Origin: Rhodospirillales bacterium
Lineage (GTDB): Bacteria; Pseudomonadota; Alphaproteobacteria; Acetobacterales; Acetobacteraceae
Length of the DNA stretch: 64,000 nt
Direction: 5' to 3'
Assembly (NCBI GenBank): GCA_025352665.1
Contig: JANXSM010000129.1
Span: 1-64,000, forward strand
Under the pieces are notes generated by a model that saw nothing but the letters and a program-made list of their open reading frames with translations, searched no databases and was not told the DNA's origin. The translations under genes were made by a program, and so were the position numbers. Of the stretch, positions 39,300 through 42,503 are shown one piece after another. The stretch's first letter is position 1; each line of letters starts with the position of its first letter.

Positions 39300-39318
39300 G
39301 GCGAGGCTGGGCTGCGGT

Positions 39319-39633
39319 CTATTTCAAGGTCGCCAAACACTGGATGAGATCCGCGCGCGGAGTGTCGTTCTTCAGACCGGCATAGGTCATGAGAGTTCCT
39401 GGCACGACGGTGCTCGGAGACGTCAGATCGTGGCCCACGGGCGCCGCATCCCAGGTCAAGCCGGAGCCCTCGTTGGCGGCGGAATAGCGGAACTCCGCGT
39501 CGCTGCCGGCGGTCCGGCCGGCGACCCCGAACAGGCGTGGTCCAATCAGCTTTTTGCCTGCCACGGCCGAATGGCATGCGTTGCACTAGAACCTTGAAGA
39601 CCTTCTCGCCGGCAGCAGCTCATTTCGGCACCC
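39319..39633 (-). pseudogene. frameshifted cytochrome c remnant
   Basis: The downstream frame encodes CNACHSAVAGKKLIGPRLFG and ends with TVVPGTLMTYAGLKNDTPRADLIQCLATLK, a textbook class I cytochrome c with heme site and Met ligand (GTLM). The start of the domain (AAAGEKVFK) sits in another frame. The two are joined by GTTCTAGTGC, where one extra base shifts the reading. A TGA precedes the fragment, and no signal peptide or start codon can be found. It is therefore a truncated and frameshifted gene. It lies between cytochrome b561 and the PYP operon. Confidence 0.75.
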
Positions 39634-39655: not shown

Positions 39656-40138
39656 CTACGCGGCGCAGGCGGCCCTGGGGTTGGTGTGATGCTGCAGGGC
39701 GTCGCGGGCCTTATCGATCCAACGGTCGATGTCGAGCAGGCGGCTGATCTCGCCGAGGTCTGCGCGCAGGCGGTTGGGGTTGGCGTGGGCGAGGTCCGAC
39801 AATGTGCAGTAGCCAAGTTGGTCGAGCCGCCGCAGCATGGCCGGGCCGAAACTGATGGCACGTGTCAGCGGTGCATCTGGCGTGGATGGTGGATCGGCGG
39901 GTTCGGGATCAACCGGCAGCCAGGTGAGCGACACCGGTTCCGGCGGGGTCGTTTGCGGGTCGAACATGAAACCTGATTGTGTGATTTCGGAGTCTTCAAC
40001 GGAGGCGTGAACCACTGTGCGCTCGTGCCGGGTTCGCGGTGACGCGCCAGGGTCGGCAACCGATTGACGGTGCGCGGCGCGGGCGAGCACACGGTGGGCG
40101 CGGTTGACGAGGATGGCACGCTGGGCACGTGACAGCAC
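39656..40138 (-). CDS. helix-hairpin-helix-like protein coupled to PYP
   Basis: I do not recognise the full-length protein. The N-terminal half (about 100 residues) is basic, then Pro-rich and acidic. The last 60 residues (FGPAMLRRLDQLGYCTLSDLA, NPNRLRADLG, IDRWIDKARDAL) look like a helix-hairpin-helix module of the TfoX-C/DUF4332 kind, which binds DNA or protein. The GTG start at 40138 has GGGG six bases upstream; a TTG at 40165 would overlap the PYP stop (TTGA), and ATG at 39968 would give a 103-residue form. Its place directly after PYP makes it a candidate signalling partner, which is inference. Confidence 0.65.
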   Translation of the reverse strand: MLSRAQRAILVNRAHRVLARAAHRQSVADPGASPRTRHERTVVHASVEDSEITQSGFMFDPQTTPPEPVSLTWLPVDPEPADPPSTPDAPLTRAISFGPAMLRRLDQLGYCTLSDLAHANPNRLRADLGEISRLLDIDRWIDKARDALQHHTNPRAACAA

Positions 40139-40161: not shown

Positions 40162-40533
40162 TCAAACGCGTTTGATGAAGATCCACACGCCCTCCTCCGG
40201 CGCGATCGACTTGATGTGCACGCGCACCTTGGCGGGTGCCACCGCGTCGAACGCATATTCGAACATGGTGTTGACGGCGCCTTTGGCGACGCCGTCCTTG
40301 AAGCATCCCTGGAACTGGTGCGTCTTGGTGCAGGGGGCGACATCGTCGAAGAAGTTCCGGCCGAGAACGTCCGCGGCCTTGTGATTGGAGGCTTCGGCTT
40401 CGAACGCGTTGTATTTCAGGATCCGGCCGCTGGGGTCGACCATAATGGCGCCGAACGGCAGCCGGTCGAGCCGGCCAGGGTCTTGGGCGACCAGGTTGTC
40501 GATATGGTCGGAGCCGAACTTGATCAATTCCAT
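40162..40533 (-). CDS. pyp: photoactive yellow protein (PYP)
   Basis: This 123-residue cytosolic PAS-fold blue-light photoreceptor aligns end to end with the Halorhodospira protein (125 residues). It shares FGAI, YNA, NFFxDVAPCT, NTMFEY and the C-terminal FxKRV. The chromophore-binding Cys (PYP Cys69) is Cys68 in DVAPCT. Hydrogen-bonding Tyr42 and Glu46 are present as Tyr41 and Glu45. Thr50 is replaced by Ser49, gating Arg52 by His51 and Tyr98 by Ala97, and the Met100 loop is one residue shorter with no Met. Function requires p-coumaric acid, so tyrosine ammonia-lyase and a coumaroyl-CoA ligase should be encoded outside the window. The ribosome site is GGGAG. It is first of a two-gene operon. 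Confidence 0.95.
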   Translation of the reverse strand: MELIKFGSDHIDNLVAQDPGRLDRLPFGAIMVDPSGRILKYNAFEAEASNHKAADVLGRNFFDDVAPCTKTHQFQGCFKDGVAKGAVNTMFEYAFDAVAPAKVRVHIKSIAPEEGVWIFIKRV

Positions 40534-40609
40534 GGCATCTCACTCCCGGGGATTGCACGACGACGAAGCCTAAGCGTAAGCGAGAAAAATGAACGAAGAG
40601 TGAACCTTT

Positions 40610-41467
40610 TCAATCGGGCAGATCGAAATAGGCGGAGGTCGGACAGTGGTCCGACAGGCGCTCCTTCCACGCGGGGCCGGTCTGCTGATAGAGCATCACG
40701 CGCAGCGATTCCGGCCGCAGCCAGGCGCGGGCGGCGCCGCCTGCGATGATGTGGTCGAGAAAGCCGCCGCCACCCCAGCAGGGCGAATGGTGGCCCTGGG
40801 TGGCGCGGGCCAGGGGCGTTGCGGTCTCGAGGCCTGCGAAGAAGCGGTCGTTGCCTTCCATCCATCGGTTGAAGTCGCCGAGCAGGACGAATGGCACGGC
40901 TTCGCGGGTGCGTTCGGCGATCCAGCCCTGCAGCACCGGCAGCTGGCCGCCGAGGGTGCGGCAGGCGGGGTCGCTCATATCGTCGAGCCGGCCTTGGCGG
41001 CAGCCGGATTTGAGATGCACGGCGAGCAGGCGCAGCCGGCCCTGGGGCAGGTCGAGCGTGATGTCGGCACCGCTGCGTAAGTGGAAGCGGGCGTTGCGGT
41101 AGAGATCGAGGCCGACCAGGTCGGGGTTTTTCGAAAACGCGATGCCGCGGCGGATGGCGAAACCGTCCCGCTGGACCACGCGGTCGCCGGTGATGTGGAT
41201 GCTGTAGCGGTCGGGGGGAAAGATTTCGGCTGCGAGTTCCGGGCCGTCCACCTCACTGAAGGCAACGACATCGGCGTCGAGCTTCAGGGCGTAGCCGCGC
41301 AGCAGGGCGATATCCTCCGGCCGCTTCGGCTGCACGTCCTCTGGCAGGTCTGGGCCGCCGGCCGGGCGCAGGGTAAGCCAGGACAGGTTCCAGGCGGCGA
41401 GCTTGAGGTCGCGCGCCGAAGCCTCGGGGGCGAAGAGGAGAAGCAGGCAGAGGAACAGGGCGCGCAT
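40610..41467 (-). CDS. exported endonuclease/exonuclease/phosphatase-family protein
   Basis: This 285-residue protein has a short signal peptide (MRALFLCLLLLFAPEASA) and an EEP fold. Catalytic landmarks are LAAWNLSWL, AFSEVDGPE (metal-binding Glu), LLGDFNRWM (Asp-Asn) and the C-terminal SDHCPTSAYF (Asp-His). The substrate may be extracellular nucleic acid or a phosphodiester or phospholipid. It lies 73 bases downstream of the HpnL-like gene. Confidence 0.85.
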   Translation of the reverse strand: MRALFLCLLLLFAPEASARDLKLAAWNLSWLTLRPAGGPDLPEDVQPKRPEDIALLRGYALKLDADVVAFSEVDGPELAAEIFPPDRYSIHITGDRVVQRDGFAIRRGIAFSKNPDLVGLDLYRNARFHLRSGADITLDLPQGRLRLLAVHLKSGCRQGRLDDMSDPACRTLGGQLPVLQGWIAERTREAVPFVLLGDFNRWMEGNDRFFAGLETATPLARATQGHHSPCWGGGGFLDHIIAGGAARAWLRPESLRVMLYQQTGPAWKERLSDHCPTSAYFDLPD

Positions 41468-41540: not shown

Positions 41541-42503
41541 TCACGCCCGGCTGCGCAGGGCGCGGCGGCCTTCCAGGATCTGCCACAGGATCAAGGCGGG
41601 TGCGCCGATGGTGAGGTCGCGCGCGCGGCGGACCAGGGAGAGCGCAAGGGCGACCTCGGGCGAGACGCCAAACAGGGCGCCGAGCAGCATGTAGCCGCCC
41701 TCCTGCACCCCCAGCGCCTGCGGCACCATGAAGGCGACGCTGCGAATGCCGGACAGCAGGCTGTCGATGACCAGTGCTGCGGCCAGTCCGATCGGGGCGC
41801 CGAGCAGATGCAGCATCAGCCAGGTTTCGCCGCCGACCAGCAGCCAGGCGGCCAGATGCAGGGCCAGGCCGAGACCGAGCAGGGCGGGGCGGTCGTGCAA
41901 CAGCGCGATCGTTTCGCGCAGCGAGCCGCCGGGCGGATGGGCGCCGAACAGGGTGTGGGACAGAGAGGCCAGGGCGCGTTCCACCATGCCGATGCCGCGT
42001 CGTTGCGCGATGACGAACAGCACGGCGAGGCCGGCCATGGCCACAAGCGCCATGATGGCGGGCAACTCGATGCCGCTACCGGGATGCAGCTTGGCGAGCA
42101 GGGCCAGGCCGAGCAGGGTGTAGACCAGCTGGGAGACCAGTTCGAGTGTCACGTCCACCACCGTTGAGGCGGCGGCGAAGCGGGCGGTGACGCCGGCGAG
42201 CACGACGGCGCGGCAGCCGAACACGAAGCCACCGATCTGGGACAGGGGCAGCACTTCGGCGGCGCCATCGCGCACCAGGCGACCCCAGATGAACCAGCGC
42301 GCGTCGGCCTGGCCGCGGGCGAGCACGCCCCAGGCCAGGCCCATCACGCCCATCAGGCACAGATGAACGGCCACGATGACGGCGAAACCGCCGAGACCCA
42401 GCGACACGAAGGCCTGCGCGATGGCGTGCCATTCGCTGCCGGCAATGAGCACGGCGGCCACCGCGATGCCGGCGACCAGAAACAGGATGGCGGCACGCTT
42501 CAT
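41541..42503 (-). CDS. HpnL-like lysylphosphatidylglycerol-synthase-type flippase
   Basis: This 320-residue polytopic membrane protein has about seven helices and resembles HpnL (UPF0104/LPG synthase membrane region). HpnL is associated with hopanoid lipid biosynthesis or transport. Visible family traits are the QIGGFVFGCRAVVLAG segment near residue 90 and the C-terminal VPQALGVQEGGYMLLGALFG motif. Other hpn genes are not in the window, so the hopanoid assignment rests on resemblance. It overlaps the P1 peptidase gene by four bases. Confidence 0.75.
   Translation of the reverse strand: MKRAAILFLVAGIAVAAVLIAGSEWHAIAQAFVSLGLGGFAVIVAVHLCLMGVMGLAWGVLARGQADARWFIWGRLVRDGAAEVLPLSQIGGFVFGCRAVVLAGVTARFAAASTVVDVTLELVSQLVYTLLGLALLAKLHPGSGIELPAIMALVAMAGLAVLFVIAQRRGIGMVERALASLSHTLFGAHPPGGSLRETIALLHDRPALLGLGLALHLAAWLLVGGETWLMLHLLGAPIGLAAALVIDSLLSGIRSVAFMVPQALGVQEGGYMLLGALFGVSPEVALALSLVRRARDLTIGAPALILWQILEGRRALRSRA

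Follow-up and report, generated by a model that had tools for sequence, protein, structure and literature searches.

A photoactive yellow protein (PYP) gene in a 64,000-nucleotide stretch of a draft Acetobacteraceae genome (this whole stretch is hereafter the window) encodes a genuine member of the PYP family from end to end, with a complete p-coumaric acid (pCA) pocket and a gate unlike that of all 86 other PYPs compared here. The genome retains only a stop-bearing fragment of the dedicated p-coumaroyl-CoA ligase (pCL), and neither the gas-vesicle gene gvpA nor an intact reaction-centre gene was detected in it. We regard an orphaned PYP under weakened constraint as the most likely setting of the gate changes, and put its chances at about even.

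Published surveys (PMC12826048; PMC9664959) leave open the signalling target of PYPs and, for loci without neighbouring genes for tyrosine ammonia-lyase (TAL) and pCL, the source of their pigment. The window genome belongs to a natural series, in which the same-genus genome G164 carries pyp, pCL and gvpA with no reaction centre found, Roseococcus thiosulfatophilus has a broken pyp with no pCL found, and the window genome has a dead pCL and a pyp that is open but altered. The window PYP is hence a natural test of whether a PYP that lacks a ligase of its own can still be loaded and maintained by selection, and whether it can outlive its light system; it also warns that gate substitutions need not signal a tuned photocycle. 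A literature search found no paper joining "photoactive yellow protein" with "Acetobacteraceae".

Materials and methods

PYP sequences were taken from 249 genomes of the same family, drawn from a larger group, and from 65 loci found by scanning named genome contigs. The partial locus L144 was left out of the alignment; setting aside the window PYP and L012, a row cut at a stop, the 95 aligned rows gave 93 rows for comparison, corresponding to 86 PYPs distinct by core sequence. The window genome (G000) is a 177-contig draft, 100% complete with 0.61% contamination. By pCL we mean the dedicated ligase of the TIGR02372 type. Selection was analyzed with a codon model on 11 taxa under two topologies, with L057, L086, L088, L090 and L106 left out and L089 and L095 as outgroups.

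Table 1. Features at the pyp locus of the window
Feature	Position	Strand	Description
Short helix-hairpin-helix (HHH) protein	39656..40138	minus	~160 aa from GTG (start codon by eye)
pyp	40162..40533	minus	123-aa photoactive yellow protein; ATG at 40533, TGA at 40164-40162
pyp upstream gap	40534..40609	minus	GGGAG ribosome-binding-like sequence before ATG (by eye)
Endonuclease/exonuclease/phosphatase family protein, upstream of pyp	40610..41467	minus	PF03372, 28.6 bits (cut-off 24.5)
HpnL-type membrane protein	41541..42503	minus	TIGR03476, 248.8 bits (cut-off 195.65)

Results

Family membership and chromophore pocket

An earlier note on this DNA had described the protein as an end-to-end match to PYP, and both the database match and the predicted fold agree with that description. 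In a phmmer search of PDB chains, residues 1-123 were covered by the Halorhodospira halophila PYP (PYP1; PDB 2phy and others) with a best E of 1.3e-36 and 51% identity. The TIGR02373 profile aligned residues 2-123 with model positions 1-124 (140.7 bits, cut-off 143.05; E 2.5e-41). Its cut-off does not define a PYP, because the model reportedly matches only 155 homologues, 20% of the set found by BLAST (PMC9664959). A Pfam PAS match scored 31.1 bits (cut-off 22.6). The note had proposed structure prediction and alignment to PYP families as a check, and these returned the PYP fold and a full-length alignment: an AlphaFold model reached a mean pLDDT of 87 from a 44-row alignment (79 in a 7-row repeat), and, as a prediction made from an alignment of PYP relatives, placed PDB PYP entries at the top of a structure comparison (Z 20.6, 122 aligned residues and 1.8 A to 2i9v; Z 19.9 to 2phy). 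By their PDB titles, 2i9v is a Y98 entry and 2d02 an R52Q entry.

The residues listed by the note (Cys68, Tyr41, Glu45, His51 and Ser49) are correct in our alignments. The chromophore cysteine Cys68 (Cys69 in H. halophila numbering) is kept, as are Tyr41 (Tyr42) and Glu45 (Glu46), and all nine residues of the pCA pocket are identical to those of H. halophila; 42 of the 86 distinct PYPs keep all nine.

An unusual gate

Compared with H. halophila PYP, the window protein has His51 in place of Arg52, Ser49 in place of Thr50, and a 92-106 loop of 14 residues that is one residue short and has no Met100. Residues within this loop can be paired in more than one way (MAFFT places a gap at Tyr98 and sets Val98 against Met100); whichever pairing is chosen, a codon and the methionine are lost, as first noted.

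The 92-106 segment has 15 residues in all 93 other rows, and His occurs at position 52 in none of them (0/93 rows). Of the 86 distinct PYPs, 66 have Arg at position 52 and the rest Leu, Ser, Ile, Tyr, Phe or Val; Met occupies position 100 in 60 and is lacking in 26. The closest PYPs, those of a subclade comprising Roseococcus, Belnapia, Paracraurococcus, Craurococcus and the MAGs L080, L082 and L083, are 63-69% identical to the window PYP over the whole protein and, unlike it, retain the full-length loop together with Arg52 and Met100 in all ten rows (nine genomes). The departure first noted from the type protein is thus also a departure from the protein's own close clade, but neither Arg52 nor Met100 is constant across the family: Met100 is missing in the 26 PYPs above, and Arg52 is no family rule because the consensus of 984 PYPs given in PMC12826048 has Leu52 (with Ala50 and Thr97). 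Among columns at least 90% conserved in the 44-row set, the window protein breaks two, those of Arg52 and Met100, and the other rows break 0-10. In the data seen, the gate change is therefore private to the window lineage, but losses at conserved sites are not numerous. Clustering of changes at gate sites gave p values of ~0.016 (loop counted once) and 0.0007 (counted apart), which are after the fact because the sites had already been picked out by the earlier reader. PYP, which the note called rare, is not very rare in this bacterial family, in which 22 of the 249 sampled genomes have a PYP-profile match at E<=1e-15.

Two PYPs with Ser50 are described in PMC12826048 as absorbing at 432 and 434 nm and recovering slowly (1 h and 50 s), which fits the shifted absorption and slow dark recovery that the note predicted. 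If pCA reaches the window PYP, absorption should by this trend lie near 432-434 nm and recovery should be altered. The same text gives R. capsulatus PYP a recovery of ~1 ms and absorption at 435/375 nm. For the window PYP itself, shifted absorption and slow recovery are conjectural. A literature search returned no match for "M100A" or for M100 together with R52.

The pyp locus in the window and in relatives

The HHH gene starts 23 bases past the pyp stop on the same strand. Its product is 62% identical over 55 aa to a protein of the G164 locus L055 (tblastn), has homologues near pyp in L055/L082, L057, L058, L080, L083 and L085, and is a shorter homologue of the larger protein that closes the pyp-X-gvpA block of relatives; HHH_5/Cdd1 Pfam matches to it are sub-threshold only. 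This short protein excepted, no signalling partner is apparent next to pyp in Pfam and NCBIfam searches. A consensus scan of the upstream gap found no sigma-70-type promoter, and the promoter/terminator scan returned nothing for pyp. Beyond the HHH gene, positions 39301-39597 (minus strand) hold a cytochrome c fragment in which the CXXCH motif comes straight after a TAG stop (by eye); it matches, at ~42% over 96 aa, the cytochrome-like gene beside the puf genes of G018.

In ten other genomes of the subclade, pCL lies near pyp in eight, on another contig in one, and was not found in one, R. thiosulfatophilus RB-3 (L088, genome G044). A gvpA gene is present in the pyp stretch of seven of the ten, and in none of the Belnapia and Craurococcus loci, which have pCL. 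In G164 (L055/L082), pCL is divergent from two tandem pyp genes, followed by X2, X1, gvpA and a protein with an HHH end; this order recurs in L080 and L083, where a single pyp is preceded by an extra X-like match. In Roseococcus, parts of the locus lie on either side of pyp, with more gvpA-family matches. The tandem genes (L055 4729-5786, minus strand) both encode Ala at position 70 and Leu at 102. X1 and X2 occur as two or three paralogues around pyp, before gvpA (L055 3637-4706, minus strand; L057, L062, L080, L083), and those of L055 match no Pfam or NCBIfam family over cut-off. Over the wider set of 45 loci with PYP matches of at least 120 residues (L080-L124), 40 have a pCL homologue within the fetched stretch; two of the other five are short contigs, and one is the broken R. 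thiosulfatophilus locus. Proximity of PYP to gas-vesicle genes is not new, having been reported for Rhodobacter capsulatus SB1003 and Loktanella sp. SE-62 (PMC3646047); unlike R. capsulatus, the window genome has no gvpA match.

A close PYP is present in only two of the eight genomes of the genus, the window genome and G164; the match in G250 is weak (30%). This indicates that pyp is readily lost in the genus. R. thiosulfatophilus RB-3 belongs to the same subclade, and pCL was not found in it either. Unlike the open window gene, however, its pyp (L088 10001-10372) is interrupted by a TAA where Tyr42 should be encoded, and the genome keeps X1 and gvpA-family genes. The Roseococcus-type genomes G216 and G124 keep both pyp and pCL.

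Lost genes and gene fossils

The earlier reading had left out the context of the gene, in which the ligase, gas-vesicle and reaction-centre genes prove to be missing. The TIGR02372 profile scored 311-347 bits in seven of the 15 other genomes searched; its best match in the window genome was partial (110.8 bits, model positions 98-385), and this search found no intact PYP-type pCL in the draft. The sole close match is a 55-residue fragment (C163:4033-4194) with two in-frame TAG codons, 54% identical (E 1.7e-9), which aligns to the N-termini of ten pCLs. No gvpA match was obtained in the window genome by a search that was positive in five of 16 genomes, G164 included. X1 also had no match there; the positive control for this search, tblastn of X1 against the loci of relatives, used a different program.

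No intact reaction-centre gene was found in the window genome; the same search was positive in ten of 13 genomes, including two from its genus, and negative in G164 and G109, which also belong to that genus. Contig C163, which holds the pCL fragment, also carries a pufL fossil (C163:57030-57197; L162:7031-7198, plus strand) of 56 residues at 57% identity (E 4e-10). Downstream of it lies a retained cytochrome-like gene (named by eye, CXXCH), the homologue of which follows pufLM in G018. A photosynthetic ancestor has been proposed for the Acetobacteraceae (PMC10715153). A plasmid search matched six records, at 47% identity or less.

Chromophore supply

The H. halophila pyp operon includes pCL and TAL (PMC12826048); neither lies beside the window pyp. 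The note had suggested searching the genome for both genes, and had counted their absence, together with a failure to form pigment with pCA, against a functional PYP. The ligase half of that search was informative, yielding only the fragment described above, but the TAL half was not. No TAL was found among the aromatic lyases of the window genome, and none in the six pCL-bearing subclade relatives searched (G164 and G213 have no such lyase; G216, G124, G121 and G209 have HutH only). We therefore rejected the absence of TAL as a refutation of PYP function. As the pCL-bearing relatives show no TAL, pCA is probably imported rather than made in this subclade; uptake has been proposed for some bacteria (PMC12826048). 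The ligase is therefore the informative gene.

The window genome has two aromatic lyases, and we took neither for TAL. The first is HutH (674 bits, cut-off 539). The Ala-Ser-Gly triad forms the MIO group of aromatic lyases; the second candidate (C70:6448-7815; L002, L052:6307-7908, minus strand) has Gly-Gly-Gly at this site, and its nearest PDB entries are the ergothionase 6s7j/6s7q. Its relative in G018 (L073) has Gly-Ala-Gly. A lyase adjoins pyp only in G132 among 14 genomes (L072); it contains a YHLATG stretch, which we take to be TAL-like, and no NCBIfam match was obtained at a 1e-150 limit.

The missing pCL is not proof of a missing chromophore, because G006 has several open pyp genes (four matches) without this pCL, and of the pyp operons surveyed in PMC12826048 only 32% contain pCL. 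Of the 19 AMP-binding matches in the window genome, one is a benzoate-CoA-ligase-like protein (356 bits, cut-off 375) and another a partial relative of pCL at 31%; a generalist ligase could load the window PYP. Further partial AMP-ligase matches lie at C70:5588-5920 and C74:1066-1999.

Selection on the window branch

Omega on the window branch was 0.145 and 0.137 under the two topologies, against 0.057 and 0.059 elsewhere. It differs from 1 (LRT 8.68 and 6.23), and it exceeds the background value only weakly (LRT 4.13 and 2.61 for the two topologies). Three control branches, L085, L081 and L082b, gave omegas of 0.065, 0.092 and 0.075, with LRT against equal omega of 0.00, 0.59 and 0.20. The protein tree is poorly resolved, with five of eight splits at 34-52. 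These values describe a gene that is constrained and perhaps mildly relaxed. By rough arithmetic, (0.145-0.057)/(1-0.057) is ~9%, and two histories give such an omega: release in the last tenth of the branch, or slightly looser constraint throughout.

We rejected an old pseudogene, the frame being open and omega different from 1. The lack of stops is weak as an argument on its own, because 24% of neutral copies stayed open at 0.2 changes per site in a substitution-only simulation. At sites invariant in three relatives, the window PYP changed 9 of 77 and the pufL fossil 20 of 44 (the two trios differ in one genome), which argues that PYP was held after, or better than, the dead pufL.

Discussion

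What we observe is the sequence, its pocket and unusual gate, the missing genes, the fossils and the omega of the branch; the history that we favor on this basis, at even chances, is as follows. The window PYP is a single-domain member of a subclade in which pyp is usually found near a dedicated pCL and mostly also a gas-vesicle gene. X2, X1 and gvpA, between pyp and the HHH gene, would have been deleted in the window lineage, and the pyp-HHH junction fits such a deletion because L082, L080 and L083 run pyp-X2-X1-gvpA-HHH. Decay would have turned pCL into a fragment, the photosynthetic reaction centre would have been lost, and PYP would have been left an orphan beside the HHH gene with its open frame and pCA pocket. 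For most of its length the window branch would have been constrained, with the constraint since weakened and Arg52, Tyr98 and Met100 lost in that setting. We infer the deletion, the order of the losses, and that the gate changes followed the loss of the loader rather than tuned a photocycle. Weakened constraint is the likeliest setting because the loader and the gas-vesicle genes are gone, and because R. thiosulfatophilus, in which pCL was not found either, has a stop in pyp. Loss of phototrophy is part of the history of the genome but is not needed for this account: a PYP system can survive such a loss, since G164 keeps pyp, pCL and gvpA and no reaction centre was found there. Against the account stand an omega well below 1 with a weak rise over the background, the poorly resolved tree, the better retention of PYP than of pufL, the nine intact pocket residues, the low count of two conserved columns broken, the open pyp genes of G006 and the many surveyed operons without pCL; the draft state of the genome is a further caution.

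The photocycle-tuning story told by the earlier note is possible, though we do not place it first. In its full form, environmental pCA would be activated by a generalist CoA ligase and load a working photoreceptor, whose His52/short-loop gate would shift the spectrum to the blue and change the recovery; we give this a tentative place, well short of even chances. The complete pocket and purifying selection on the branch speak for it, as do the pCL-bearing relatives, in which no TAL was found and import of pCA is therefore probable, the AMP-binding repertoire of the genome and the open pyp kept by G006 without this pCL. It has to contend with a dedicated ligase that is only a fragment, a gate found in none of the other PYPs, the broken pyp of the other pCL-less subclade genome, and the lack of any apparent partner nearby except the short HHH protein. 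A broader proposition, that selection kept PYP after the loss of photosynthesis, gas vesicles and dedicated ligase, with a rebuilt gate and either loading by a generalist ligase or a non-light role as a PAS sensor paired with HHH, we likewise hold to be doubtful, though worth entertaining.

The non-light use taken alone is improbable in our estimation; in it, apo-PYP would serve as a scaffold or PAS-type sensor, for instance in partnership with the HHH protein beside it. The close spacing of pyp and HHH on one strand, the recurrence of HHH near pyp in several relatives and an omega below 1 without an intact pCL agree with such a use, and neofunctionalized PYPs have been proposed for methylobacteria (PMC9664959); unlike the methylobacterial cases, however, Cys69, Tyr42 and Glu46 are intact here. 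An assembly or base-calling error behind the odd loop and the His codon, which the 177-contig state of the draft might invite, is very unlikely: the loop change is a whole codon that keeps the frame and has substitutions around it, the genome is complete with little contamination, and the His52 codon lies one base from the CGC of the four relatives compared.

Two further features of subclade loci were recorded. In Belnapia arida (L086 8669-9839), pCL matches fall in two frames beside an intact pyp, through a frameshift or an assembly error. The Roseococcus-type PYPs of L085 (10001-10372), L057 (9353-9721) and L058 have a natural Gln at position 46 and are rare cases of E46Q.
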